In this document: positions 845 to 30,460 of the stretch, piece after piece
Layout of the letters: each line of letters opens with the position of its first letter
How positions within the stretch are numbered: the stretch's first letter is position 1
Translations under genes and position numbers: made by a program
Virus record (IMG/VR): IMGVR_UViG_3300009185_000039
Span: 1-42,598 of that record
DNA: 42,598 bases
Direction: 5' to 3' (one strand)
DNA from: a virus
The notes under the pieces: model-generated
What the model saw: the letters and a program-made list of their open reading frames with translations, nothing else
Databases searched by the model: none
What the model was told of the DNA's origin: nothing

Positions 845-1816
845 TCATGCTGTGATTTTTCTATTGAAGATGCCGAAGGGCATGGGGATGGCGGCGGAGG
901 GTTTGTGGGTGGATGTGGTTGGTTTTTTGGTGGTTGTGGATACGGGGTGGTCGGTGCGGTGGTGTGGGGGGATGAGGCGGATGAAGCTGGCGAGGCCTCG
1001 CCATTGGGCGCGGAGGATGTCGCCGAGGCGGTGCATGGTGAAGGGGTCGTCGCGGTGGTAGGATTCGGCTTGCTTGGTGAGTATTTTGCGCAGGTTGCGG
1101 CGGCGCAGTCCGGTCTTGATCTGGTGGGAGGCGGCGCGGAGTTTGCGGCGGGCTTGGCGGGTGGGCAGGATGCCGGTGGGAGTCGCGGCGATGCCGGTCA
1201 CGATGCGGTGTCCGGCGCGGGCGTGCTGGCGTGTCGTCTTGTCGGCGTTGATCTTAAAACCATGCGCGGCGGCGAGGGCAGGGATTTCTTTGAGAATCCT
1301 CGCGGCGACGGCCTCGCTGTTGCAGGAAAAGGTGAGGTCGTCGGCGTAGCGGGTATAGACAAAGGCGGGGCCGCGACTGCCGAGGATACGGCGCTTGGGG
1401 GTCAGCGACTCGCGCAGAGCGATCACGGCGGCATCGAATGGCGCAGCGGCGATGTTGGCGATGGCGGGGCTGGTCGGCAGACCTTGGCGGGCGGCTCCGT
1501 CGGGGAAGCAGTTCTGCCTATACCAAGTGCGTGCAATGATTTTCGGCGGGTCTGGCAGCATTTCCGATGTTACCGAGTCGAAGAAATCCTCGAAGTCGAA
1601 GTGCAGGGTAATCTGCCAGTCGCCGACATGGGCGAGGGCGTTGGTCACGATCGAGCGGCCTGGCATGAACCCGTGGGCGACTTTGTGTGTGTCGAGGTCA
1701 ATGGCTTGGTCATTCAGATGGTGGACGATGCCTTTGAAGAGAGGCTTATCTCTCGGGCTGGGGCAATAAATCGTGCGGAACTTGCCGTTGCCTTTAGGGA
1801 TTTTTGTGATTTTCAT
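845..1816 (-). CDS. Retron-like reverse transcriptase (323 aa)
   Basis: This is an RNA-directed DNA polymerase of the retron type. Visible motifs in order are R-T-I near residue 14, the retron 'X' motif N-A-x-x-H (59-63), F-D-F-E-D-F-F (first catalytic Asp, near 74), Q-G-L-P-T-S-P (111-117), the catalytic Y-A-D-D box (157-160), the K of I-N-A-D-K, and the retron 'Y' motif V-T-G (206-208). A basic thumb-like region ends in G-L-A-S-F-I. Retron RTs usually carry about 40-50 more N-terminal residues, so this one is short at the front. The start is fixed by a TAATG overlap with the TGT-like gene at 1816, so the two are translationally coupled. The C-terminus is a low-complexity Thr/Pro tail ending R-K-I-T-A next to a family A repeat. 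A diversity-generating RT was considered but the motifs do not fit. Confidence 0.88.
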   Translation of the reverse strand: MKITKIPKGNGKFRTIYCPSPRDKPLFKGIVHHLNDQAIDLDTHKVAHGFMPGRSIVTNALAHVGDWQITLHFDFEDFFDSVTSEMLPDPPKIIARTWYRQNCFPDGAARQGLPTSPAIANIAAAPFDAAVIALRESLTPKRRILGSRGPAFVYTRYADDLTFSCNSEAVAARILKEIPALAAAHGFKINADKTTRQHARAGHRIVTGIAATPTGILPTRQARRKLRAASHQIKTGLRRRNLRKILTKQAESYHRDDPFTMHRLGDILRAQWRGLASFIRLIPPHHRTDHPVSTTTKKPTTSTHKPSAAIPMPFGIFNRKITA

Positions 1817-2877
1817 TACTTTCTGTAAGCGAGTTCATCCATGAAGTTTTCTTTAGCTTTCTCGTGTCGCTTTTTGCTTTCGGCGATGGAGTGGGCGAGA
1901 AGGAGCTTGTTGGCGTTGGGCTTGAATCGTGGCGCGCTTTCGGGGTCGAATTCGCGTAGGTTGTAGTGGCGGACATTCACAGGCTTAGGGGCGGCGGTGC
2001 CTCGAAGCTGTTTGTTGATCCAGTTGTTGAGGGTGATTGCGGATTGCACGCAGAGATCCTGGCGGGACTGCCCTCGGGGACAGGTGCGCTTATTCTCGGC
2101 TACGAGGCGGCCATTGGCATCGTTGATCCAGAGTCCGTAGCGTGCTCCGTCGAGCCACTTGGAGGTGTCGCAGGAGGTAACGAATGGGTCTAACTGCATG
2201 ATGGCGTCGAGCCAATTTAACCCGAGGATGTGGAAATGCTCGCCCCAGCGTTGAGAGAGGGAGAGCAACTCGGCGAGGGCGCCCTCGTCCTTGGCTCGCA
2301 TCCACGGCACGCATCCGCCGATCGCGATAAGATCCGCTTCGGGGGAGTTCATCTCTCCGAGGAGTTGGGCGTCTTCTTTATTATACTGGCGTCGGGTTTG
2401 CGCCCATTCGACTAAGGCTTCGAGATGGTCGATGCGGCCGCCCCATTGCCATACAGGGATGATCTTGCCTGTCCAGTGATAGTATTCGCCCCACTTGCCG
2501 TCAAACTGGAACCATTCGCGGATGTTTTGCCAGCGATCCCATGTTTCCTGCGGATCGCCAAGCACATCTGGCATCGTGATGAAGGCGAGCTTGCGGACGG
2601 CTGCGGCAGTTTTTTTCTTCCCGTCGAATTCGTGGAAAAGTGGCGATTCGGAGAGGTGCAGGGTGTGGTTGATTTGCTCGGCCCATAGGTCGAGATCGGT
2701 GATGGGGGTTTTCAGCTTCCATTGTCGATAGGCTCCCGAGTCTATGGCTACGCTGGCGGCGGATTGGTGCCGCACATTTTTCCAATCGTGGGGGTCTGCG
2801 AGGAGTTGCGAGATATCGGCTCGGGCAAGCATTTCGGCTTCGCTGTTTCCGGCGATGCCGGAGAAGTAGATTTTCAT
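1816..2877 (-). CDS. TGT/DpdA-like transglycosylase family protein (353 aa)
   Basis: This protein is likely related to tRNA-guanine transglycosylases and the phage and bacterial DpdA proteins, which exchange guanine for a 7-deazaguanine in tRNA or DNA. In TGT order I see I-D-S-G-A-Y (about 45-50, candidate Asp acid/base), M-P-D-V-L-G-D (102-108), I-P-V-W-Q-W-G-G (140-147), A-I-G-G (185-188), H-I-L-G-L (216-220) and S-C-D-T-S-K-W (235-241, candidate nucleophile Asp). A Cys pair follows near residue 262, but a full zinc site is not obvious. It is coupled by TAATG to the retron-like RT, so they probably act together. No preQ0 synthesis genes (FolE, QueD, QueE, QueC) are in the window. It could be a DNA-modification enzyme, or the effector of a retron-like unit. 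Confidence 0.68.
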   Translation of the reverse strand: MKIYFSGIAGNSEAEMLARADISQLLADPHDWKNVRHQSAASVAIDSGAYRQWKLKTPITDLDLWAEQINHTLHLSESPLFHEFDGKKKTAAAVRKLAFITMPDVLGDPQETWDRWQNIREWFQFDGKWGEYYHWTGKIIPVWQWGGRIDHLEALVEWAQTRRQYNKEDAQLLGEMNSPEADLIAIGGCVPWMRAKDEGALAELLSLSQRWGEHFHILGLNWLDAIMQLDPFVTSCDTSKWLDGARYGLWINDANGRLVAENKRTCPRGQSRQDLCVQSAITLNNWINKQLRGTAAPKPVNVRHYNLREFDPESAPRFKPNANKLLLAHSIAESKKRHEKAKENFMDELAYRK

Positions 2878-5416: not shown

Positions 5417-5661
5417 TTCAGGGTTCCCAGGTGTAACTCGCGGAGTATCGTCCACTCCATATTTCGTGCTTGCTCCTCGCGGTAAAGCTGGAGCAAGCGA
5501 ATGACGCCGATCATGATCGTGTCGTCTGGGTTGCGAAATTCTTCGACGAGACCCGCGATACTGCCGAGTTCGATCGACCTATCACGCATGATGTTAAATT
5601 CTTCTTCTGTGAGAGTTATGGATTTCTCCGTGTTCTCTGTGTGCTCTGTGGTTATATTCAT
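5413..5661 (-). CDS. Small hypothetical protein with repeat-encoded N-terminus (82 aa)
   Basis: The ATG at 5661 overlaps the stop of the AAA+ ATPase gene by ATGA, which supports this start. The first residues (N-I-T-T-E-H-T-E-N-T-E-K) are then a translated family A repeat. A native start at M-R-D-R (near 5590) is the alternative. The rest is helical (E-L-G-S-I-A-G-L-V-E-E-F and R-L-L-Q-L-Y-R-E-E). It is coupled to both neighbours, and its function is unknown. Confidence 0.6.
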   Translation of the reverse strand: MNITTEHTENTEKSITLTEEEFNIMRDRSIELGSIAGLVEEFRNPDDTIMIGVIRLLQLYREEQARNMEWTILRELHLGTLK

Positions 5662-7175
5662 GCGGCTTTTGCGATTTTGCGGGTTTTGGTTTCGGTGGCG
5701 GTGGGTTTGAGCGAGGCCTCGGTGGCGCGGCCTTTGAGTCGGTCGCGGCGGGCTTGGATGGCTGCGCCCATGGTCTTGGAGGTGGGGGTGGAGTTGGCGA
5801 GGGAAGCGAGTGCGTCTTCGGTGGTGGGTGGACGGAATCCGTCGTTGAGGGCGATCGTCACGGCGTTGCACCACACTTCTTCGATCTGGCGACCGGAGTA
5901 GCCTTCGCTGGCTTCGGCGAGGCGTTGCAGGTCGAATTCTTCGGGGTTCCAAGGAGTCGTTTGTTTTTGGCGAAGCATGGCGATGTGGATGCGCCAGATG
6001 GCGAGGCGCTCTTCGTGGTGGGGGAGGTCTACGAGCCAAGTCTTTACGCGGTCGATCACGGGGTCTGGTATCTTGTCAATATCATTCGCCGTGAAGACAT
6101 AGAAGATGCCCTCGGAATGGTCTTGCATATCTTGGATGATGGACTTGATGACGCGATCGGTGGTGCCTCCGTCGGTGCTGGAGCCGGAGCCGGAGAAGAG
6201 GCCATCGACTTCATCGATCCAAAGCACACAGGGGGCTACGGCTTTGGCTGTGGCGTGGACGGTGCGCCAGTTCTGCTCGCTTTGCCCGACAAGGGATCCG
6301 AAGAGATTATCTGCCTTGAGACGCAGAAGAGGGACGCCGAAGATCATGCCGCAGGCTTTGGAGAGGAGTGACTTGCCAGTGCCGGGGTGTCCGCAGGCAA
6401 GGAATCCGCGTGGAGGTTGAGCGCCGAAGGCGGCGGCAGCCTCGGTGTAAAGGTGGCGGTTGTTGGTGAGCCAAGACTTGAGATTCTCCAAGCCGCCGAT
6501 GCCGTCGAGAGTGGTGGGGTAGTCCACAATCTCCAAGATGCCGTTTTTGCGGATGGTGTTGGCTTTTTCGCGCTGGATGATGTCGGGCCGTATGTCGCCT
6601 GTCTCCACGATGGAGAGAGCGAAGGCGTCCTCGGCTTCTCCGGTGGTGAGGCCAGAGGCAGCGGCGAGGAGCGGTGTGAGATCCTCGGGGAGCATGATGT
6701 CCGCGCTCTCGGCGATGGAGCGGAGCACGATGGCGAGGGATTCGCGGTCGGGCAGGCTGAACTCGATAGGGGTAATGAGCTTGGAGCAATCGACAGGAAT
6801 CTTTAGCTCGGGGGCGAGGATGAGGAGGGTGATGCCGCGTGCCTTGCCTTGGATGAGGGCATCCTTGAAACGGCGAATAAGCACGGCATAGCCTGGGAAG
6901 TCGGGCGTGAGGAAGAGGTGGAAGTCACGCAGGAGCAACAGGCTGTTATCGGGCATGGAGGCCACGGATTCGAGGATTTCCACAGGGTCGGTGATGCCTT
7001 CGACTGTGCCTGCCATGACTTCGTGGCGGCCTTTGGCGATATCCCACGCAAAGAGGAGTCGGTCTGTGGCAGCGGCGGCCTCGGCGATGGTGCGCTCGAT
7101 GCGGGCTTCCTCGTGGCTCACGAGGTAGAGGCAGGGGTAGCCTGCTTTGAGGTAGTTGGTGATACGGGTTAGCAT
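5658..7175 (-). CDS. Ycf46-like AAA+ ATPase (505 aa)
   Basis: The N-terminal 220 residues form a Ycf46-type domain (C-L-Y-L-V-S-H-E-E-A-R-I-E), a degenerate ATPase-like fold. The C-terminal AAA+ domain has Walker A G-H-P-G-T-G-K-S (262-269), Walker B V-L-W-I-D-E-V-D (317-324), an F-T-A-N sensor-1 stretch and a G-Y-S-G-R-Q-I-E sensor-2-like region. The start at 7175 directly follows a family B repeat; upstream in-frame sequence is repeat-derived. With the DUF2997 and DUF1257 genes it forms a group also known, from memory, in cyanobacteria and some phages, where the role is unresolved. The extreme C-terminus T-R-K-I-A-K-A-A is identical to that of the unrelated protein at 10256. Confidence 0.85.
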   Translation of the reverse strand: MLTRITNYLKAGYPCLYLVSHEEARIERTIAEAAAATDRLLFAWDIAKGRHEVMAGTVEGITDPVEILESVASMPDNSLLLLRDFHLFLTPDFPGYAVLIRRFKDALIQGKARGITLLILAPELKIPVDCSKLITPIEFSLPDRESLAIVLRSIAESADIMLPEDLTPLLAAASGLTTGEAEDAFALSIVETGDIRPDIIQREKANTIRKNGILEIVDYPTTLDGIGGLENLKSWLTNNRHLYTEAAAAFGAQPPRGFLACGHPGTGKSLLSKACGMIFGVPLLRLKADNLFGSLVGQSEQNWRTVHATAKAVAPCVLWIDEVDGLFSGSGSSTDGGTTDRVIKSIIQDMQDHSEGIFYVFTANDIDKIPDPVIDRVKTWLVDLPHHEERLAIWRIHIAMLRQKQTTPWNPEEFDLQRLAEASEGYSGRQIEEVWCNAVTIALNDGFRPPTTEDALASLANSTPTSKTMGAAIQARRDRLKGRATEASLKPTATETKTRKIAKAA

Positions 7176-7203
7176 AGAAGTTTTAAGTATGAAGGATGAA
7201 GTA

Positions 7204-7226
7204 AAAATCCTTACAATAAGGATTTT
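7204..7226. repeat. 21-bp palindrome family P, copy 1 (family described here)
   Basis: The consensus is AAATCCTTA-NNN-TAAGGATTT, with 9-bp arms and a 3-nt spacer (CAA, CGA or, inverted, TTG). Copies are at 7204, 7576, 8878, 11610, 14391, 14471, 16155 and 26032. At 7211-7558 the gene stop lies inside the palindrome, giving a C-terminus K-S-L-L. Flanking T-runs would make it a weak bidirectional terminator. The copies inside coding genes point to a small mobile or gene-converted repeat. Confidence 0.85.
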
Positions 7227-7558
7227 GTTGCTGCTGACATGATGCGGTCTTCGGTGCAGACCACGATGTAGATTAGGCCTTCGGGTGGAGGGGGTATGGT
7301 GGGTTTTTCCATAACCTGAGTCCGATAGGCATTGAGGGTTTCGACCGGGGTGGCAAGGGTGAGAGCCGGTATGCAGCCAGCGGCGAGTTGTTTGTCGCGA
7401 TTGGCGATGAGGTTCTCGGTGGTCTCGTGCGCCTCGGCCAGTTGGAATGCCAACGGGTCGGTGAGATCGAGCACCCACAGGACATTGTTCTCGCCTGTGC
7501 AGGCAAGTTGGGCAATGTCGATGTGGTATTCGAACAGCGCGGCTTGGCGATGTGTCAT
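7211..7558 (-). CDS. Hypothetical protein (115 aa)
   Basis: The product is not recognised. It has an alpha/beta pattern with V-L-W-V-L-D-L-T-D-P and a C-terminal strand G-L-I-Y-I-V-V-C-T-E-D. The C-terminal K-S-L-L is read from palindrome P. It lies between the AAA+ and DUF2997 genes, so it may be an accessory of that group. Confidence 0.6.
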   Translation of the reverse strand: MTHRQAALFEYHIDIAQLACTGENNVLWVLDLTDPLAFQLAEAHETTENLIANRDKQLAAGCIPALTLATPVETLNAYRTQVMEKPTIPPPPEGLIYIVVCTEDRIMSAATKSLL

Positions 7559-7575
7559 AGTTTCATTTTTTAGAA

Positions 7576-7596
7576 AAATCCTTACAATAAGGATTT
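7576..7596. repeat. Palindrome P, copy 2
   Basis: The arms are AAATCCTTA and TAAGGATTT around a CAA spacer. It encodes the last residues (K-S-L-L) of the gene 7582-7812. Confidence 0.9.
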
Positions 7597-7812
7597 TGGA
7601 ATTACGGCGATGACCTTGCAGAACTGATCTTCCCAGCTTGGCACGCTGATCTGGATGGTGCGGTAGGGGGTGAGTCGGTGCTGGTTGGCTTCGCCTTGGT
7701 CTATGGCGAAAGCGTGGATTTTGCCTTCGTGGAGGAAGTGGGCGAAGAATCGGTGATCTTGCGGGATGGCAATGGCTTCAAATATCTTCACTGAAGAGGA
7801 GGTTGCGATCAT
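7582..7812 (-). CDS. Hypothetical protein (76 aa)
   Basis: The function is unknown. It has aromatic and His-rich segments (D-H-R-F-F-A-H-F-L-H) and beta strands (T-I-Q-I-S-V-P). The start at 7812 overlaps the DUF2997 stop by ATGA (7809-7812), so the two are coupled. Its C-terminal K-S-L-L matches that of the next gene because both end inside palindrome P. Confidence 0.65.
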   Translation of the reverse strand: MIATSSSVKIFEAIAIPQDHRFFAHFLHEGKIHAFAIDQGEANQHRLTPYRTIQISVPSWEDQFCKVIAVIPKSLL

Positions 7813-8003
7813 GCCTTTACTCGCTGGGCTTGGGTGGTGGTGCCGAGGGCGTAGTATTCCGGCTTTTTCTTGCGCGCTTTTTTGAGGCCGAGGGCTTCTT
7901 CGATTTCTTTCGTGGCCTGCTCACAGGCTCCACCTCGGAAGCCAGTAGCTTCCACGGTGACTGTGCCTGCGGCATCAATAGTGACTTCAATGGATCTGTG
8001 CAT
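7809..8003 (-). CDS. DUF2997 family protein (64 aa)
   Basis: The pattern I-E-V-T-I-D-x-x-G-T-V-T-V-E-A-T-G-F-x-G-x-x-C-x-x-A-T, then E-E-A-L-G-L and K-P-E-Y-Y, matches my recollection of DUF2997. Its members accompany DUF1257 (Ycf35) and Ycf46-like ATPases, as they do here. The length is normal for the family. The biochemical role is unknown. It is coupled to the gene at 7582-7812 and overlaps an out-of-frame ORF (7817-8110). Confidence 0.72.
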   Translation of the reverse strand: MHRSIEVTIDAAGTVTVEATGFRGGACEQATKEIEEALGLKKARKKKPEYYALGTTTQAQRVKA

Positions 8004-8110
8004 AATAGTATTTCTGTGGCTAAGGTTGCGGCTGCGTGAACCGACATACGGATGATGCGGTCTTGATCTTCGGGGCTAAGGCCTGGAAGAAGGGTGCGTT
8101 GGTTTGACAT
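7817..8110 (-). CDS. Small ORF overlapping the DUF2997 gene out of frame (97 aa)
   Basis: The first 40 or so residues (M-S-N-Q-R-T-L-L-P-G-L-S-P-E-D-Q and onward) lie in otherwise unassigned DNA after a family B repeat and look like a real small phage protein. The remaining 60 overlap DUF2997 in another frame and are Lys/Pro/Ser-rich, as expected of a non-selected frame. Either the overlap is real, or a frameshift or lost stop lengthened the gene. Confidence 0.4.
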   Translation of the reverse strand: MSNQRTLLPGLSPEDQDRIIRMSVHAAATLATEILLCTDPLKSLLMPQAQSPWKLLASEVEPVSRPRKKSKKPSASKKRARKSRNTTPSAPPPKPSE

Positions 8111-8179
8111 GGGAGTTTTAAGTTTTAAGAATTAAGTTTTAAGTTTTTAACTCCTCTGTGTTCTTTGTGTTCTCTGTGG

Positions 8180-8611
8180 TTAAACTGAGATTTGGAGTTT
8201 GATGGTGTCGCCGACTTGTTTGCGGGTCACATAGTAGCCCTTGGCCTTGGCGGCTGCGGTGGCGGTGTGGACTCCATACATCTGCTTGAGCTTGGTGAGA
8301 CCGTCGCCGAAGTGGGAGCGGAGCTTCTCGCCTGGCCCCCAGAAGTCGTAGAGGAGTGTGTAGGTCTTGGGCTTGGCGGGGTTGCGCACGACGCCGATCT
8401 GGTAGGTCGTGCCTTTGAGGCCGATGGCGTGCTCGCACTTGCCGAGCATATCCTGGGTGAACCCTGGAGGCAGTGGGAAGTCGCCGACATGGCGGCCATA
8501 CCACTCGTAGTTTTTCTTGTCTCGCAGGAAATTGCCGCCCATTTCTTGAATGGCGCTTTCGAGCGCGGTGAGGTTGCTGATCTCGATGTCGATGTTTGTT
8601 ACATGGCTCAT
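8180..8611 (-). CDS. DUF1257 / Ycf35-like protein (143 aa)
   Basis: The N-terminus M-S-H-V-T-N-I-D-I-E-I-S-N-L-x-A-L-E-S-A-I-Q-E-M-G-G is typical of DUF1257 (Ycf35 of cyanobacteria and plastids). A central G-L-K-G-T-T-Y-Q-I-G-V-V strand and a C-terminal A-A-K-A-K-G-Y-Y-V also fit. The biochemical function of the family is not established. Position in one cluster with DUF2997 and a Ycf46-type AAA+ protein strengthens all three assignments. A family A repeat follows the stop and a family B repeat precedes the start. Confidence 0.8.
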   Translation of the reverse strand: MSHVTNIDIEISNLTALESAIQEMGGNFLRDKKNYEWYGRHVGDFPLPPGFTQDMLGKCEHAIGLKGTTYQIGVVRNPAKPKTYTLLYDFWGPGEKLRSHFGDGLTKLKQMYGVHTATAAAKAKGYYVTRKQVGDTIKLQISV

Positions 8612-8637: not shown

Positions 8638-8868
8638 TTAAGTTTTAAGTTGGTTTAGAGCGGCGAGTTGGGCTTCGGCGCTGGCGGCTTGGTTGCGTGT
8701 TTTGAATGTGGGCTGCTCGGCAAATGGTCGGGGATCGCAGACGATTCGCCATTTGCGATCGGCGTAGTTTCTTGATACGCAACCGACAGCTCCAGATGGA
8801 TAAATGATGTTTAAGACATACCATCCGCCGTGTCGCCATGGCGAATAGATGAATGAGGATGTGTTCAT
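8638..8868 (-). CDS. Hypothetical protein (76 aa)
   Basis: The product is not recognised. The N-terminal half is aromatic and beta-rich (W-R-H-G-G-W-Y-V-L-N-I-I-Y) and the C-terminus is an alanine-rich helix that ends at a family B repeat. It lies between palindrome P copy 3 and the DUF1257 gene. Confidence 0.6.
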   Translation of the reverse strand: MNTSSFIYSPWRHGGWYVLNIIYPSGAVGCVSRNYADRKWRIVCDPRPFAEQPTFKTRNQAASAEAQLAALNQLKT

Positions 8869-10255: not shown

Positions 10256-11119
10256 TCATGCTGCTTTGGCGATTTTGCGGGTGGTGGCTCCGAATTGCAG
10301 GGCGATGCCTTGGGCGTGGGCGGCGGCGAGTTGGCGGGTGGTTTGGTTTTTCCGCATTTCCTCGGCGCTGAAAGTGAGTCTCTGCCTTGCCTCTTTGGCG
10401 ATATCGGCAATGATCGGGTCGTTGGTGATATTCAACGCCGGAATGCGGTCGAGGTATTCTTGCAGCTTGGCGAATGGGCCTTTGCGGTTCTCGCTGTCCA
10501 CGATCGGCCCGTCATTGGCGAGGGATTCGGCGGTGTCGCCGATGAGTCCGAGGAGGGTGCGGAGGACTTGGTTGCGGATCTGCGAGGTGGTGTTGGTGAG
10601 TCTCTGCTCGTATTCATCGGCGAGGCGCTTGCCGAGTTCATCGGTGAGTTGGTCTTTGATGAATTGGTTTGGCTCGGGCATGGGGAGTATGGCGAAGGTG
10701 AAGCGGAATTTGCCTGCCAGTGTCTCGCGGGTGGGGTAGTCGGCGATGTTGAACGCGCCGTTTTTGTCGTAGCGTTCCTGCTCCAGCCAGACATCGTATT
10801 TATCGAGCCAGTCTTGGGTGAGCTTGGCGTGCTCGACGGCCATTTCCTGCATGAAGGTGAGCCAGTTTTGCTTCTCGCCCTCGGTGCAGACGCGGATAGC
10901 GCCGATGGCTTCGAAGGTCATGTTGGAGTGGTATTTCCGCACCTTGCCCTCGAAGCTGGTGTGGGGCTTGAGGCTGTCGCCCCAGAGCTGCTTGACTCCT
11001 CGCACGGCATTGCTGCCGGTGGAGTAGGACTGGATGAGGTGAGCGGTGAGTTCGTCGTCGGTCTTGCTTTGGCCGGGGTGGCCGAAGCTGGTGGTGGCTT
11101 GCCAGAGTGTGGTTTTCAT
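10256..11119 (-). CDS. Hypothetical helical protein (287 aa)
   Basis: This is a largely alpha-helical soluble protein. The region around D-Y-P-T-R-E-T-L-A-G-K-F-R-F-T faintly recalls DUF3150-type phage proteins (low confidence). It contains no catalytic motif I can name. The last eight residues T-R-K-I-A-K-A-A are identical to the AAA+ ATPase C-terminus, and both genes stop immediately before a family A repeat. The gene lies 20 bp downstream of dnaN, separated by a family B repeat, so it may work in replication. Confidence 0.6.
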   Translation of the reverse strand: MKTTLWQATTSFGHPGQSKTDDELTAHLIQSYSTGSNAVRGVKQLWGDSLKPHTSFEGKVRKYHSNMTFEAIGAIRVCTEGEKQNWLTFMQEMAVEHAKLTQDWLDKYDVWLEQERYDKNGAFNIADYPTRETLAGKFRFTFAILPMPEPNQFIKDQLTDELGKRLADEYEQRLTNTTSQIRNQVLRTLLGLIGDTAESLANDGPIVDSENRKGPFAKLQEYLDRIPALNITNDPIIADIAKEARQRLTFSAEEMRKNQTTRQLAAAHAQGIALQFGATTRKIAKAA

Positions 11120-11139: not shown

Positions 11140-12336
11140 TTAAGCCTCGCAGGGTTCCTCTTCTTCCTCGCAAGGCGCTTCGTCGGGTTCGGGGTTTGCG
11201 GCGGGTGGTGGTGTAACTCTCACGGGCATGAGGATATGGGTGTTCTGCTTGACTCCGGTGATGCGGGCGGGGTGCAACCCGTCGAGGTAGCTGAAGGTGT
11301 CGCCGCCGTTTTCGAGGGCGTCGATGAGGAACTGGGTGTTGAAGGCGATATTCTGCGGGTTCCCTGTGAGCACGGCGGGCTGCGTGAAGCTGCCGATGGT
11401 CACTTCGTCTTTGCGGAGGTGGAATGTGATGCGACCTGGGGACGGCTCCAGCAGGGTGCTGCAGAGTTCCTTCTTGCGGCCAGCGACGAGTTTGTTGATC
11501 TTGCGGAGGTTGGCCGCTGCGTCTTGGTTATTGAATCGCACCGAGTGGTTGGTGGGATCTGGCATGACTTGTCGCCAGTTTGGGTATCGCCCATCCAAGA
11601 GTTTTGAGAAAATCCTTATTGTAAGGATATTCTCTGTGGCTACGAAGGCGATGTAGCGGCTGGGTAGATGCACTACTGGCTCATCTGGCGATTCTTGATC
11701 CTTGGGGCGCTCCAAGCTGATCGAGGCGCGGGGCGGGATCATGCGGCACGCGGCGTAGGGGATCGTGACCCCATCCACTTCGAGGGGCGAAAACGGCTCG
11801 GTGTGCAGTCGCCGCCCATCGGTGGCGACGAGAATCCCTTCTTTGTCCCAATGGACGCTGTTGAGGATATAGCGCGTCTCGTCGGTGCTGGCGCACCGCA
11901 TGAGGCGCTTCATGGCATCGAGGTCGATCTGGCCGCTGACGGGCATCCAATCCACCTCGGGCAGAGGGGGAAACTCGTCGGCGCTCTCCGTGGTGATCGG
12001 GATGGTGGACACTTGACTACCTATGGTGAGCTGGATGCTGTCGCGGTCGAGTTGCAGGAAGGTGGCGGCATCTGCCGACGCGGCGGCATTGGCCAGCACG
12101 CCAGCATCTACGAGGAACGACCCCGCATTTTTGGCGCGGAGGGCGGAGAGCTTGCTGCCGGATGTCGGCACGCTTGCCGCGACGGCTTGCTCAAGGTTGG
12201 TCGCGGTGAATCGGGTTTCGTGGAGTCCCGGCTCGATATGCACACAGGCCAGCGCGGGCAATGTGGGGCGGGTATTTACGGCTCGCTGCAAGTGCTTGCA
12301 GGCGATGAGGAGGTGGTCTTTGTGGATGGTAATCAT
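11140..12336 (-). CDS. dnaN: DNA polymerase III beta sliding clamp (398 aa)
   Basis: This is a ring-shaped processivity clamp that tethers DNA polymerase to the template. Family signs are the N-terminal H-L-Q-R-A-V-N-T-R-P-T-L-P-A-L, A-T-D-G-R-R-L-H in domain 2, S-K-L-L-D-G-R-Y-P-N-W entering domain 3, and the C-terminal I-L-M-P-V-R strand. The clamp proper ends near residue 375, followed by an acidic tail (C-E-E-E-E-E). Its ATG overlaps the stop of the small membrane protein by ATGA. The sequence before S-K-L-L-D-G (N-I-L-T-I-R-I-F) is encoded by a copy of palindrome P and is a few residues longer than I recall for the E. coli clamp. A phage-encoded bacterial-type clamp is uncommon. Confidence 0.92.
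   Translation of the reverse strand: MITIHKDHLLIACKHLQRAVNTRPTLPALACVHIEPGLHETRFTATNLEQAVAASVPTSGSKLSALRAKNAGSFLVDAGVLANAAASADAATFLQLDRDSIQLTIGSQVSTIPITTESADEFPPLPEVDWMPVSGQIDLDAMKRLMRCASTDETRYILNSVHWDKEGILVATDGRRLHTEPFSPLEVDGVTIPYAACRMIPPRASISLERPKDQESPDEPVVHLPSRYIAFVATENILTIRIFSKLLDGRYPNWRQVMPDPTNHSVRFNNQDAAANLRKINKLVAGRKKELCSTLLEPSPGRITFHLRKDEVTIGSFTQPAVLTGNPQNIAFNTQFLIDALENGGDTFSYLDGLHPARITGVKQNTHILMPVRVTPPPAANPEPDEAPCEEEEEPCEA
11610..11630. repeat. Palindrome P, copy 4, inside dnaN
   Basis: The arms are AAATCCTTA and TAAGGATAT around a TTG spacer (inverse orientation), with one mismatch. It is read in frame as part of the clamp. Confidence 0.85.
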
Positions 12337-25437: not shown

Positions 25438-25751
25438 GTCCACGGACAGTTAAGACAATTTACGAGGGGGCGGGAGTTAAAGGAATTAAAAGTCGAGCAG
25501 GAGAAAATTCTTTGAAGGGCTCGGGTTGTTTGTCGTTTGGGCAGGCGGGGAAGAGACGGAAGTATCTCACGCAGGAGGAGCAGGAGAAGATCTGGATGGA
25601 GCATCTCAAGAAGGATATGGAGCGGGCGGAAGAATACTTCTGGCGGCAGACGCCGGAGCGGCGGCGGGTGCAGGATATCTACCTGGAGACGCACAGGGGA
25701 TTTGGTCGGGAAGGGAATGATTTTATTTTTGGAAAGGGAAAAAAACGATGA
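25434..25751 (+). CDS. Basic hypothetical protein (105 aa)
   Basis: This is a Lys/Arg/Glu-rich protein whose central helix (T-Q-E-E-Q-E-K-I-W-M-E-H-L-K-K) is likely a coiled coil. It is coupled at both ends (ATGA) between the portal and the 1570-aa gene. It could be a small connector or internal protein. The family is unknown. Confidence 0.65.
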   Translation: MSPRTVKTIYEGAGVKGIKSRAGENSLKGSGCLSFGQAGKRRKYLTQEEQEKIWMEHLKKDMERAEEYFWRQTPERRRVQDIYLETHRGFGREGNDFIFGKGKKR

Positions 25752-28700
25752 GTGAATTACTTCGCAAAGCAGTCGAGACGATGAAACTTCTCAAGAAGAA
25801 GCCGCACCTCAAACCTGTGGCGGCTGGCGGCGGCGAGTTGAGCAAGGCCGAGCGTTGGCGCACGGCGCAGATGGCGCAGGATTGGCTGAATGCAAATGCC
25901 GATCCGAAATATCACCGGCGCAGGTTGCCGGATATGGAGGAAAATGGGCAATTCAAGCTGTTGACGCGCGGGCGGCTGGGTATGAGGCTCAAAGAATTTC
26001 GCTATTATCAACCTCCCGGCGGCTACTACGGAAATCCTTACGATAAGGATTTTGCTCAGGAAAGACAGAAAGAGCGACGCAATGGGTTGATCAAAGCGGG
26101 CATCGTCGGCGCGGGTTTGCTGGGTGGTGGAGCTTTGCTGGGCCGTGGTTTGTATAAGGTCGGCAACAGCGGGGCTGTGCGGCGAGCCGAGGATCTGGCC
26201 GAAGAACTCTCGAAGCTGCGCGCCAGTAAGGCCGCTGCCGATGTCGGGAATGTCGCACCTGCTCCGCGTGGCCGCCCGAAGCTCAAAAGCGAAACGCCGC
26301 CTCCGACACCTCCTCAGACGCCTGCCCCTACACCGCCGCCGCAGACGCCTCCCCCCACACCCCCGCCAACGAATGTTGGCAAGGGGAGCAAGACCACACC
26401 AAAGACCAAGGTGGTCGAAAGTTTGAACAACTCGGGCGACTTGCCCGCTGCTGATGCCGCCGCTGAGATCGATGAGATCACGGCAGTCAAGCCACCCCGC
26501 AAGCTCACGGCGAGGCAACAAAAGCTGGCGAACCGGCAGGCTAAAGTCGCCAAATTCGCCGCCGCCCAATCTGGAGCCTCCGTCCCGTCCACGCCTGCTC
26601 CCGCAGCACCAGTCGTTCCGAAAACAAAGACTCCCGTAGTTGCAAAAACAGAGCCTCCTGCCACCCCTGCGTCCCGCATCGAGGCTATCAAGTCATCTGT
26701 GCAGCGTGTGGATGATGGCGTGCCTGCGCCAAAAGTCGCCAGCGCGACGAATGAGGAATTTTGGGAGAAAAAAGGGGTCGGCAAAGTTCCGCTTTTAGGA
26801 ACGCCCGAGCAGAACGCCGCCCTCCGCAAAAGGTTGGAAGACACTCATGCCGCTGGGGGGTTCACTGGCAAGGTCGCTGCCGATGTGATCGATGAGGCGC
26901 GCGCTTCGCTGAAACCGAAATCCGATTTTCCAGAAGGACTCAGCGATAAACTTCGCTCGGCAGGGAAGGAAAACAATCCAAAGCCTAGAGCTAAGAAAAA
27001 GTCCAAGGCCAAAAAACAGGATGCCGATGAGGCTGACGATCTCGATGATCTGGATGAGGCAGACGACATCAATGAACCTGATGCCTCGCCGGAGGAGGCC
27101 GATTGGGAAGCAAAGCTGAAGGAGAATCCTCAAGTGCGTGCCAAGAAATCTGCCGCAAAGTCAGATTCCAAAAAGCCTGCCGCAAAAGCTGCCGCAAAGT
27201 CGGATTCCAAAAAACCTGCCGCTAAGGCCGCCGCTAAACCTGCTGCCAAATCCAATAAGGGTAAAAAAGAGGCGGCTCCGCTTTCTTTTGCCGAAAGGAT
27301 CGCTGCCAAGGTCAAGGCGAAGCGTGCCAAAAAGAATGGCAAGAACCTCTCTGCCCTCTTGCACCGCGTGCGATATTTCAATCAATTTCAAACCGACGAG
27401 GCGGGCATCCCGCTCACGGGTCGTGTGGCGAGGGATCGCTTCGTGAAGAAGCTCCGCGATGAGGACTTGGATCGCCGCGATGCGAATATCCTGCGTGCCG
27501 GTGGCGCGGGGGCGCTGGCGGGCCTACTGGCTCGTGGCCGCATCGGCGCGAGCAAGCGCGCACTCATCGGCGCGGGTGCTGGCGGACTCGGCGTGATCAG
27601 CATTCGTGCCCTCACCAATAACGACCGCGACATCTACGGCGAGCGGGATCGTGGCAGCAAGCGCGCGGAATTGATCCCTGCTTTGGGTGGTCTCGGCGCG
27701 GCGGCGTGGCTTGCGGGTAAGCGGTTCAAGGCGTTTGCGAAGAAGTTTAACCACGGAGGACACGGAGAGCACGGAGGAGGGTTGAAGGAGTTTGCGTGGA
27801 TCTCGGTAAAAACAGATCGGGTTTCGGCAGATCATGCTGCAGCCAGAAGAGCAATTATAGAAAAATACGGCAAGCCGCAGGCGGAAGCGCGCGCCCCGGG
27901 TATCGCCGTAGAAAAGAAAGACGGCCCTTCTATCTTCGCGTCCATGAACAACCCTGATTCGCCATTCTATGTGCCTCCAGAAAAAAGAGAAGAGCAACGC
28001 CTGCGCGCAAAAGAATGGCACAGAATAAATCGTCTCCGCCATCTGGCTTTACGCAAGGAGTCCAACCTGGCCTCCCGTCTTCGGGGCGTGAAAAACTTTG
28101 ACGACTACCGGCTCTACTATTTCAAGGGTCGGAATACGGGCATTGCTGCGCGGAGTGCTGAGGAGGCTCGCTCGAAAAAGAAGCGTGGCGGCGATGAGTT
28201 GGTGGCTGTGCGCACGCCGAATGATTCCGAACGGAGCCAGATGGCGCGTGGGGTGTGGGTGCGGACTCGCCGCGATGGCAAGTCGCCTGGGCAATCCCGC
28301 TACGGCAAGGGCCGTGGGCAGGGGCCAGCGCGGAAGAGCTTGAGCGCGAAGCTGCGCGGATTGAAGGAGTTTGGGGTGTTGAAGTCAAAGATCGTGCCGG
28401 TAATAGAAAGGGGTATTGATTCGATTACTGATTATGATCCTTTCGGGCACTTCTCGCGGCAGACGGCAAAACTTAACACTCAGCAGGCTAAGCATGTGCG
28501 TGCACAGGAAAGCGCGCACGCGGCAAGAATGTCCCAAATACTTGGCAGCAAGTGGTCACCCAATTACGGTGAATCATATGGCGCGAAATTCTACACTAAA
28601 GAAGCAAAGGGATACCGCAAGCAGGCGGCTGATCGTTTCAAGCGAGACGCTGTAGTATCTGGGGTAGGATTAACCGCTGCTGGTGCTGGCGCTGGATATT

Positions 28701-30460
28701 TGGCTACGCGCAAGAAAGAGCAGAAACAACTTGCGGCGAAGATACGCGGGGTGCGGTTTTTCCAAGAAAAGAAATCTGGCATGAACCCCTATGCAGGTGC
28801 GGCGTTGTCTGGCTTCGGCAGTGGCGCGGCACTTGGCTCTCTGGCGCTGCTCAAGCGCGGGGCGACATTCCGTGGCGCGGCGAAGACGGCGGCGAAGCTG
28901 GGGTTGGCCTCGGCGGGTATCGTCGGCGGCGGGGCGTTGCTCGGCAGCAAGATCGTGGGCGATCCGCGTAAGGAGGAGTCCGCTCCCTTTATGAAGCGGG
29001 CGGCGATCGGCGGCACGCTGGTCGGCGCAGGCGCAGGACTCGGTGGGGCATTGCTGCTTCGCAAGACCAAGGGTGGAGCGCGTGCGCTTGTGGCGGCCTC
29101 TAAGAAGAGCGAGCCATTTTCACGGCCTGCCATGTGGTTGCGTAAGACTCCCCTGGCTGGAGCCGCTGCGATCGGTGCCGTGGGCGGGGCGTTTTATGGT
29201 GGCGGCATGGGCGCGGATGAAGGGCAGCAAGTCGATTCGATACGCAATCTGAGAAAGGATATGAAAAAGTTTTCAGTGGGCAGTTTTCAGTTTTCAGGGA
29301 AACGGCTGCGCGAGTTTGCGCTTATTTATAAAACCGGAATTGGCGGGGCGATCTTATCGCGCTCCTCCAAGGGCAGTTCATTTGCGGAGACAGCCAAGCG
29401 CGCCGCCAAGGCGGTGGGCGGGTGGGCGAAGCGGAATGGCACGGCGATCGGTCTCACAGGGGCCGGTGTCGGAGCCTCGGTGGCGGCATCCCGCTATTAT
29501 GGCCCGTCGAACAAGGGCTGGAAAAAGCTCGATGAGCCGAAGGAATTTGGCCGTGGCGACCAGGCGCGCTGGGATGCCCGCCGTGGCGGGGGTGTGCTGC
29601 CCAACGAGGACTCGCAATTTGCCAATACAGCCTGGGGCTGGGCGACTGATCGCCCGATGTATATCCCTAAGAGGAACAGCCAGGGCCGTGTCGAGAAAAA
29701 TCCCGATACTGGCGATACGATTCGCGTGAAATGGGACCCGAGTTCGGGTCAGCTCTGGAACTCCGTGGCCCGCGAGGCGGGACGCCAGCGCGTGAATGTG
29801 CAGCGCGGCGGGCGACTCTCGCGCGATCTCGTGGATGAGCTGCGCGGCGCACCCCGCCAGCGCGATGTCAGTGGTCGCATCAAGAAGCGTGAGTGGGAGA
29901 AAAGCTGGTTCCACAACAAGGCTACCGAGATCGGTATGACAGCGGCTGGCTTGGGCGGCCTAGCCACCGTGCGCTATGCCAATAACAACCCGGATACCAA
30001 GATCGGCGAAGCTTATAAAAAAACTAAAGCAAGCCTTCGTGCCACGGGGGATGGCCTCTCGGAGATCGGTAAGAACATCTTAGGGGGCCTCACAAAAATC
30101 ACCGCGAAAAAAGCATTCTCCGCGAAGCTCAAGAAGCTCCGTGAACTCGATGCCATTGCGGAATACGAGGGCTGGGATGTCCGTGATCCGCGTGGTCGCT
30201 CGGCCCGTGTCTTCGCACCCGGCAGCCGCAAGCGCGAACGCCGCCAGAAGGAATGGCATGAGAAGACGGAAAACGAGCGCAAGCTCTGGAAGGCAGGCAT
30301 CGCCGCAGGCGTGCTCGGCGGCGCAGGAGCCATGCTCGTCGGCCAACGCCTCGTCTCCGGCAAGTCGCTCATCCCCTCGCGGTTTATGCCCAAGAAGGTA
30401 ACTCCACCCGATGCCAGCGTCTTTGTGGATGCGGCCAAGGTGTTCAAGGCAGGCGCTTAA
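25748..30460 (+). CDS. Giant cassette-containing glycine-zipper protein (1570 aa)
   Basis: This is a modular, very basic protein. Cassettes of the S-A-K-L-R-G-L-K-E-F type occur near residues 80, 535, 680, 777, 866, 995, 1184 and 1458. Between them lie hydrophobic Gly/Ala segments with G-x-x-x-G spacing (near 115-130, 585-620, 975-990, 1012-1065, 1085-1105, 1140-1160, 1230-1250, 1515-1535) that could insert in or cross a membrane. Residues 185-330 are Pro/Thr-rich linkers and 450-520 a Lys/Ala block (K-S-D-S-K-K-P-A-A-K). Family A, family B and palindrome P repeats are translated in frame at 27748, 29266 and 26032. Lying between portal and protease, it is probably an internal or ejected virion protein made as a precursor. 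The family is not recognised. Confidence 0.8.
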   Translation: MSELLRKAVETMKLLKKKPHLKPVAAGGGELSKAERWRTAQMAQDWLNANADPKYHRRRLPDMEENGQFKLLTRGRLGMRLKEFRYYQPPGGYYGNPYDKDFAQERQKERRNGLIKAGIVGAGLLGGGALLGRGLYKVGNSGAVRRAEDLAEELSKLRASKAAADVGNVAPAPRGRPKLKSETPPPTPPQTPAPTPPPQTPPPTPPPTNVGKGSKTTPKTKVVESLNNSGDLPAADAAAEIDEITAVKPPRKLTARQQKLANRQAKVAKFAAAQSGASVPSTPAPAAPVVPKTKTPVVAKTEPPATPASRIEAIKSSVQRVDDGVPAPKVASATNEEFWEKKGVGKVPLLGTPEQNAALRKRLEDTHAAGGFTGKVAADVIDEARASLKPKSDFPEGLSDKLRSAGKENNPKPRAKKKSKAKKQDADEADDLDDLDEADDINEPDASPEEADWEAKLKENPQVRAKKSAAKSDSKKPAAKAAAKSDSKKPAAKAAAKPAAKSNKGKKEAAPLSFAERIAAKVKAKRAKKNGKNLSALLHRVRYFNQFQTDEAGIPLTGRVARDRFVKKLRDEDLDRRDANILRAGGAGALAGLLARGRIGASKRALIGAGAGGLGVISIRALTNNDRDIYGERDRGSKRAELIPALGGLGAAAWLAGKRFKAFAKKFNHGGHGEHGGGLKEFAWISVKTDRVSADHAAARRAIIEKYGKPQAEARAPGIAVEKKDGPSIFASMNNPDSPFYVPPEKREEQRLRAKEWHRINRLRHLALRKESNLASRLRGVKNFDDYRLYYFKGRNTGIAARSAEEARSKKKRGGDELVAVRTPNDSERSQMARGVWVRTRRDGKSPGQSRYGKGRGQGPARKSLSAKLRGLKEFGVLKSKIVPVIERGIDSITDYDPFGHFSRQTAKLNTQQAKHVRAQESAHAARMSQILGSKWSPNYGESYGAKFYTKEAKGYRKQAADRFKRDAVVSGVGLTAAGAGAGYLATRKKEQKQLAAKIRGVRFFQEKKSGMNPYAGAALSGFGSGAALGSLALLKRGATFRGAAKTAAKLGLASAGIVGGGALLGSKIVGDPRKEESAPFMKRAAIGGTLVGAGAGLGGALLLRKTKGGARALVAASKKSEPFSRPAMWLRKTPLAGAAAIGAVGGAFYGGGMGADEGQQVDSIRNLRKDMKKFSVGSFQFSGKRLREFALIYKTGIGGAILSRSSKGSSFAETAKRAAKAVGGWAKRNGTAIGLTGAGVGASVAASRYYGPSNKGWKKLDEPKEFGRGDQARWDARRGGGVLPNEDSQFANTAWGWATDRPMYIPKRNSQGRVEKNPDTGDTIRVKWDPSSGQLWNSVAREAGRQRVNVQRGGRLSRDLVDELRGAPRQRDVSGRIKKREWEKSWFHNKATEIGMTAAGLGGLATVRYANNNPDTKIGEAYKKTKASLRATGDGLSEIGKNILGGLTKITAKKAFSAKLKKLRELDAIAEYEGWDVRDPRGRSARVFAPGSRKRERRQKEWHEKTENERKLWKAGIAAGVLGGAGAMLVGQRLVSGKSLIPSRFMPKKVTPPDASVFVDAAKVFKAGA
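26032..26052. repeat. Palindrome P, copy 8, inside the 1570-aa gene
   Basis: A perfect copy (CGA spacer), translated as N-P-Y-D-K-D-F about 15 residues after the first L-K-E-F cassette. Confidence 0.9.

Follow-up and report, generated by a model that had tools for sequence, protein, structure and literature searches.

The window, that is, the whole 42.6-kb virus record IMGVR_UViG_3300009185_000039, carries a block of minus-strand genes centred on three proteins: a DUF1257 (Ycf35 family) protein, a DUF2997 protein and a Ycf46-like AAA+ ATPase, hereafter the trio. The order of transcription is DUF1257, DUF2997, a gene for 76 amino acids (aa), a 115-aa gene and the ATPase (Table 1). The three families had been named in an earlier account made from the letters alone (the sequence-only reading), and named rightly. 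The DUF2997 protein scores 56.2 bits against a Pfam gathering cut-off of 24.1 and covers model positions 1-47 of 47. The DUF1257 protein scores 23.9 bits against 22.2, passes the cut-off again in the genome-collection search, and has the MSH N-terminus and conserved G/Y positions in common with aligned relatives. The ATPase consists of an AAA module plus lid and matches phrog_8638 of PHROGs across almost its full length (E 1.2e-88).

Like Ycf46/Slr0374 of cyanobacteria and red plastids, in which the N-terminal half is degenerate, the ATPase is a full-length AAA+ protein with a degenerate N-terminal half; the AAA module and lid are C-terminal. Walker A is GHPGTGKS and Walker B is LWIDEVDG. The label Ycf46-like is set by the AAA module, the lid and the profile match, not by alignment with cyanobacterial Ycf46; no Ycf46-specific model stands among the Pfam and NCBIfam matches of the protein. 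The start is most likely at 7175, giving 505 aa, and not at 7478 as previously proposed, because in the alignment the longer reading extends upstream of the N-terminus common to relatives. The two small genes reported between DUF2997 and the ATPase are indeed present. They are regarded as accessory because they are poorly kept among three contigs of about 90% identity (115-aa gene in two, 76-aa gene in none). NCBIfam and PADLOC scans gave no match for the small proteins. A 97-aa frame at 7817-8110 overlaps the DUF2997 gene and is at most a candidate gene, the substitutions against three close relatives speaking neither clearly for nor clearly against it. The cysteine at residue 27 of the DUF2997 protein is invariant in 46 of 46 aligned homologues; the DUF1257 alignment contains no conserved cysteine.

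Table 1. Module genes, adjoining genes and other annotated frames of the window
Feature	Position	Strand	Basis and remarks
Reverse transcriptase	845-1816	-	phrog_2825 E 3.5e-30; many PADLOC reverse transcriptase families
353-aa protein	1816-2877	-	phrog_887 (queuine tRNA-ribosyltransferase) E 6e-10
Ycf46-like AAA+ ATPase, 505 aa	5658-7175	-	Pfam AAA E 2.3e-21; AAA_lid_3 E 2.5e-6
115-aa protein, familyless, accessory	7211-7558	-	no Pfam or PHROG match
76-aa protein, familyless, accessory	7582-7812	-	no Pfam or PHROG match
DUF2997 protein, 64 aa	7809-8003	-	PF11211 E 3.2e-15
DUF1257 (Ycf35 family) protein, 143 aa	8180-8611	-	PF06868 E 5.2e-5; N-terminus MSH
76-aa protein, no assigned family	8638-8868	-	marginal PHROG match only, E 0.095
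phrog_38408-family protein, 78 aa	8884-9120	-	phrog_38408 E 4.8e-6, residues 2-47
DUF3150-related protein, 287 aa	10256-11119	-	match to profile built from DUF3150 cluster; C-terminus ...TRKIAKAA
Sliding clamp (DNA polymerase processivity factor)	11140-12336	-	phrog_947 E 1e-37; directly upstream; context, not part of the module
1570-aa open frame	25748-30460	+	Ala/Lys/Pro-rich (KPAAKAAAK stretches); structural half of genome

The trio is a real linked unit, with linkage far above chance, since three independent seedings, by ATPase, DUF1257 and DUF2997, recover one gene set. The ATPase-seeded set comprised the window and 85 loci from phages or viruses, 86 records in all, scored with profiles built here; DUF1257 was present in 52 and DUF2997 in 50. 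Both were always on the strand of the ATPase (52 of 52 for DUF1257), sometimes before and sometimes after it, with variable spacing. DUF1257 seeding, in which a tighter DUF1257 clade (A7) served as profile for viral and genome collections, gave 36 newly fetched loci with an AAA protein in 34 and DUF2997 in 35. For DUF2997 seeding the Pfam model was run against 297 whole genomes from the phylum of one deltaproteobacterial hit. It matched 35 genomes, and the 25 loci fetched, each of about 3 kb, held an AAA protein in 23 (within 3.1 kb) and DUF1257 in 22. A natural fusion of DUF1257 and DUF2997 into one 190-aa protein was found in a virus (L022:10355-10924). Co-occurrence beyond this record, also claimed beforehand, is thereby confirmed in phages and bacterial chromosomes (ATPase-DUF1257 52/86, DUF1257-AAA 34/36, DUF2997-AAA 23/25); as to genomes, physically linked trios were seen in those of Desulfobacterota type and of Nitrospirota.

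Cultured phages with the module are Aeromonas HJ05, Rhizobium L338C, Agrobacterium JP1 and Rhodobacter RcMenchie. Gene order in HJ05 and L338C is AAA-x-DUF1257-DUF2997-(phrog_38408). A tblastn search of cultured phages with the window DUF1257 gave no match, despite the presence of DUF1257 in them; the HJ05 protein as query matched 17 records. A gene for an NrdG-like radical-SAM protein lies near the trio in nine loci (L025, L026, L030-L032, L034, L037, L062, L065), and in four of the nine it separates DUF2997 from DUF1257.

In phages and mobile elements the trio is usually accompanied by DUF3150 (PF11348), and often by phrog_38408 too. DUF3150 emerged from clustering of neighbouring frames; by profile it occurs in 35 of the 86 ATPase-seeded records. 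Of the 36 loci seeded by DUF1257, several of them truncated at a contig end, 26 have it. The Pfam DUF3150 cut-off is passed by proteins of L033 (E 2.1e-18), L056 (E 1.1e-11), L109 and L169, and missed narrowly by that of L014. The corresponding window protein falls below the gathering cut-off and is therefore labelled DUF3150-related only; if it is counted, the module reaches at least position 11119. The phrog_38408 family is a fourth partner in many loci, with 21 of 86 ATPase-seeded records and, in addition, Nitrospirota operons. On Nitrospirota contigs of 91-136 kb, three loci are compactly arranged as AAA-DUF1257-DUF2997-DUF3150-phrog_38408. The sliding-clamp cluster occurs in ten loci, every one trio-bearing. 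The gene that follows AAA in HJ05, L338C, JP1 and RcMenchie (g66) was considered as a hidden DUF3150 and ruled out (profile-profile comparison, 0.1%).

The chromosomal version has other company. Of the larger genome loci, 34 in all, 17 have an Hsp70-like protein and 10 have DUF3150; none has both. The Desulfobacterota-type operon encodes a HEAT-repeat protein, an Hsp70-like protein, AAA, DUF1257 and DUF2997; one such operon stands on a 4.2-Mb contig. This operon type resembles the window in the core trio, single strand and tight order, and differs in having Hsp70-like and HEAT proteins where phages have DUF3150 and phrog_38408. The Hsp70-like protein L170:6368-7801 matches Pfam HSP70 (PF00012; E 7.9e-11, 41.3 bits against a gathering cut-off of 20.6), and Pfam HEAT_2 is matched by four neighbours (E 4.4e-15 to 7.6e-10). 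A canonical Ycf35 gene of genome G196 (102 bits to PF06868) adjoins an AAA gene, with FGE-like, HEAT and DUF2997 genes within 5 kb. The ATPase profile built from phages finds this AAA protein, a further likeness to Ycf46/Slr0374; the AAA that adjoins a canonical Ycf35 in L179 matches the profile. The contexts seen are read as two branches, DUF3150 marking that of mobile elements and Hsp70/HEAT that of chromosomes. In a quick ATPase tree, which together with the locus sampling began from the phage protein and gives no direction of transfer, the Hsp70-type rows group together inside the diversity of trio-bearing phages (support 61, not secure).

A second phage set replaces the whole trio around a related ATPase. 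Among the 86 records, 27 (the Corndog-like mycobacteriophage Catdawg is one) have neither DUF1257 nor DUF2997 and encode two other proteins instead: c3 (phrog_11021) in 27 and c7 in 26. These Corndog-type rows form one clade of the ATPase tree (support 99). The loci (L005, L038, L040 and some 24 others, all viral) never carry DUF1257. The c7 protein starts with MPCDT, has a histidine-rich end (HSHDGGKTWH) and looks metal-binding. Profile-profile comparison of c3 and c7 with DUF3150 and DUF1257 detected no homology (probability 12% and 0.3%), and a hidden relationship is not proposed. Cluster O mycobacteriophages (Corndog, Catdawg) thus resemble the window in a homologous, phage-borne AAA with clamp and ParB genes in the region, and differ in c3/phrog_11021 and c7 in place of DUF1257 and DUF2997. 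In published mass spectrometry the Corndog AAA protein gp96 turned up in infected cells but was not detected in purified particles (PMC4351075); this suggests that the relative is non-structural. These data are the sole experimental support.

The window ATPase and the DUF3150-related protein end identically, in TRKIAKAA. C-terminal stretches of 12 residues were compared between AAA and DUF3150 proteins in a discovery set of 28 dereplicated pairs. The mean score was 16.2; other proteins at the locus gave 9.4 (0 of 1000 reached the observed value) and mismatched loci 12.4 (maximum 14.8). In a replication set of 19 new pairs the mean was 12.4, again above other proteins at the locus (9.15; 0 of 1000 reached the observed value), with no excess over mismatched loci (11.7). 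The replication outcome supports a shared type of tail and not a genome-by-genome matching. Unrelated proteins adjoining AAA in HJ05, JP1 and RcMenchie also carry tails of the RK-L/I kind. The motif is not rare in itself, being present in 2-6 of 95-148 frames in a genome-wide scan of three phages. This basic-hydrophobic tail, common to the ATPase and DUF3150, is to be taken as a lead, with docking as its candidate function. As a separate observation, the reverse transcriptase of the window ends in ...IFNRKITA, which resembles both tails.

The reading favoured here, at a probability of roughly 0.5, is that the window holds the phage form of a widespread AAA+ protein-remodelling or chaperone module, the accessory parts of which differ between cells and phages. 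The Ycf46-type motor, a classical AAA protein, would to judge by its family most likely form a ring and act on protein substrates by pulling or rearranging them. Its best sequence relatives among solved structures are Cdc48/p97-type unfoldases (E 1.8e-41); it differs from them in being phage-borne, with a single canonical AAA module in 505 aa, and scores well under the NCBIfam CDC48 cut-off. DUF1257 and DUF2997 are taken as dedicated small partners of the ATPase because of near-constant gene linkage and the L022 fusion; they probably bind each other and serve as adaptor or cofactor. In cells the core is linked to the Hsp70-like ATPase and the HEAT-repeat protein and would work with them as a machine of the chaperone type. 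In phages and mobile elements DUF3150 and phrog_38408 would stand in their place and may supply or present a phage client. The shared tail, a pattern borne out in part, might serve for docking. The site of action would be the infected cell and not the particle. Chaperoning, one of the roles suggested in the sequence-only reading, thus gains indirect support from the chromosomal Hsp70-like and HEAT neighbours, not from the phage branch, which is without them. The suggestion of a self-contained unit is not supported in that wording: most phage trio loci add DUF3150, often with phrog_38408, and some phages build another set around the ATPase.

Several findings weigh against this interpretation. 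Support for the proposed steps is by association only. Hsp70/HEAT neighbours are a feature of the chromosomal branch alone, neither being present in that of the phages. Only one of four Hsp70-like proteins scanned matches Pfam HSP70; those of L171, L172 and L174 match no Pfam family, so that their label rests on a common profile match. AAA and Hsp70-like tails are not significantly alike (104 of 1000). The two window tails are identical at 22 of 24 bases, and a copied repeat is therefore possible in the window; several other AAA-DUF3150 pairs have only 8-14 of 24 bases in common. In alignment with phage relatives the window ATPase lacks the complete segment GRFDE of the classical two-arginine finger (PDPVIDRVK-TWLVDLP in the window, RRGRFDE or similar in relatives), so that ATPase activity may be altered or weakened; family membership is unaffected. 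The AlphaFold model of DUF1257 is confident (predicted local distance difference test score 91.5), but its fold has no confident relative in the PDB (Foldseek best E 0.78), and the predicted model of DUF2997 is too poor for a fold search, which leaves the adaptor role without structural support. Searches of solved structures with sequence profiles of the two families brought up no relative. The best VIA-align match of the DUF1257 fold, to AMPK/KA1-like domains, was set aside (Z 5.0, too weak to use).

Other functions were weighed. Maturation or repair of a redox, Fe-S or radical enzyme, with AAA remodelling the client and the DUF2997 cysteine and DUF1257 handling metal or sulfur, is possible but rather unlikely. 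It would suit the invariant cysteine, the NrdG-like gene near nine trios, the adjacency of cyanobacterial DUF2997-DUF1257 to the [4Fe-4S] ferredoxin gene fed7 (PMC4284462), the lower tolerance to H2O2 and Cd after loss of fed7 (PMC4307280) and the response of slr0374 to iron deficiency and oxidative stress (PMC7496141). However, DUF1257 offers no conserved cysteine, no enzyme client is common to all loci, only a minority of loci have the NrdG-like gene, none was seen next to the module in the window, and no ferredoxin was recognised in the phage and Desulfobacterota-type loci examined, among which no systematic ferredoxin search was made. Remodelling of a replication complex or other DNA-protein complex, the nucleoprotein idea of the sequence-only reading, is considered unlikely. 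The neighbourhood speaks for it: the module lies in or beside the replication block (beta-clamp, DnaB, Pol I), in the window within a leftward block with the sliding clamp adjoining; DnaB helicase and Pol I come after it in JP1 and L338C; a ParB-like cluster is near AAA in ten loci; and in Corndog a clamp and a ParB-like gene share the leftward region of AAA (PMC4351075). Early phage genes are, however, often packed together irrespective of function, the neighbours in Desulfobacterota-type chromosomal operons are chaperone-like and not replicative, and no DNA-binding domain was found in the ATPase, DUF1257 or DUF2997.

A more elaborate scheme is improbable: client proteins would be marked by the R-K/R-I/L basic-hydrophobic tail that also ends the motor, DUF1257/DUF2997 would read that tail within an autonomous phage chaperone or unfoldase, the cellular form would be Hsp70-HEAT-AAA, and plastid Ycf35/Ycf46 would be remnants. 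Very improbable is a counter-defence or host-takeover device in which AAA acts against a host system. The AAA domain does resemble the anti-phage ATPase IetA (PADLOC E 5.3e-25; NCBIfam IteA E 1.7e-24), but the generic AAA module alone is matched, at 86.7 bits against an NCBIfam cut-off of 510, Cdc48 scores higher, and the trio occurs as a chromosomal operon too.

Compared with the remodelling module preferred here, the cyanobacterial arrangement is partly alike. In Synechocystis DUF2997 and ycf35 (DUF1257) are adjacent, as in the module, and cluster with fed7; a ferredoxin thus stands where the module has AAA, and neither DUF3150 nor phrog_38408 is reported (PMC4284462). Both fed7 and ycf35 belong to the SigD regulon (PMC8875361). 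Ycf46 (slr0374) differs from the window ATPase in lying away from Ycf35, in the stress-induced operon slr0373-slr0374-slr0376 (PMC7496141). The co-occurrence of all three in cyanobacteria and plastids, as given in the sequence-only reading, is thus right in half: in Synechocystis it stands for DUF2997-DUF1257 and not for Ycf46. According to a passage of the latter paper that cites earlier work, loss of the slr0374 operon lowers extracellular carbonic anhydrase activity (PMC7496141). In the literature searched neither DUF3150 nor a phage-borne trio is described; this absence is weak evidence, most subscription journals being outside the coverage. The genomes of plastids and cyanobacteria retain Ycf35 and Ycf46, proteins with no settled function. 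Through the linked module three or four "domains of unknown function" become likely parts of one machine, and the company they keep in phages and, beside Hsp70-like genes, in chromosomes is a first testable clue to the role of these long-unexplained proteins. The cultured phages HJ05, L338C and JP1 offer material for experiments on each part.

Further features of the window are as follows. A near-identical 21-base palindrome, AAATCCTTAC(A/G)ATAAGGATTT, is found at 7205, 7576, 8878, 14391 (variant), 16155 and 26032; several copies overlap or adjoin gene ends, and some lie inside the cassette. An intergenic repeat of the type ACCACGGAGGACACGGAGAACACGGAG was seen by eye near about 5066, 5628 and 8150, in both orientations and beside genes. 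The 353-aa protein adjoining the reverse transcriptase may, as its phrog_887 match suggests, be a DpdA-like enzyme that modifies DNA with 7-deazaguanine.

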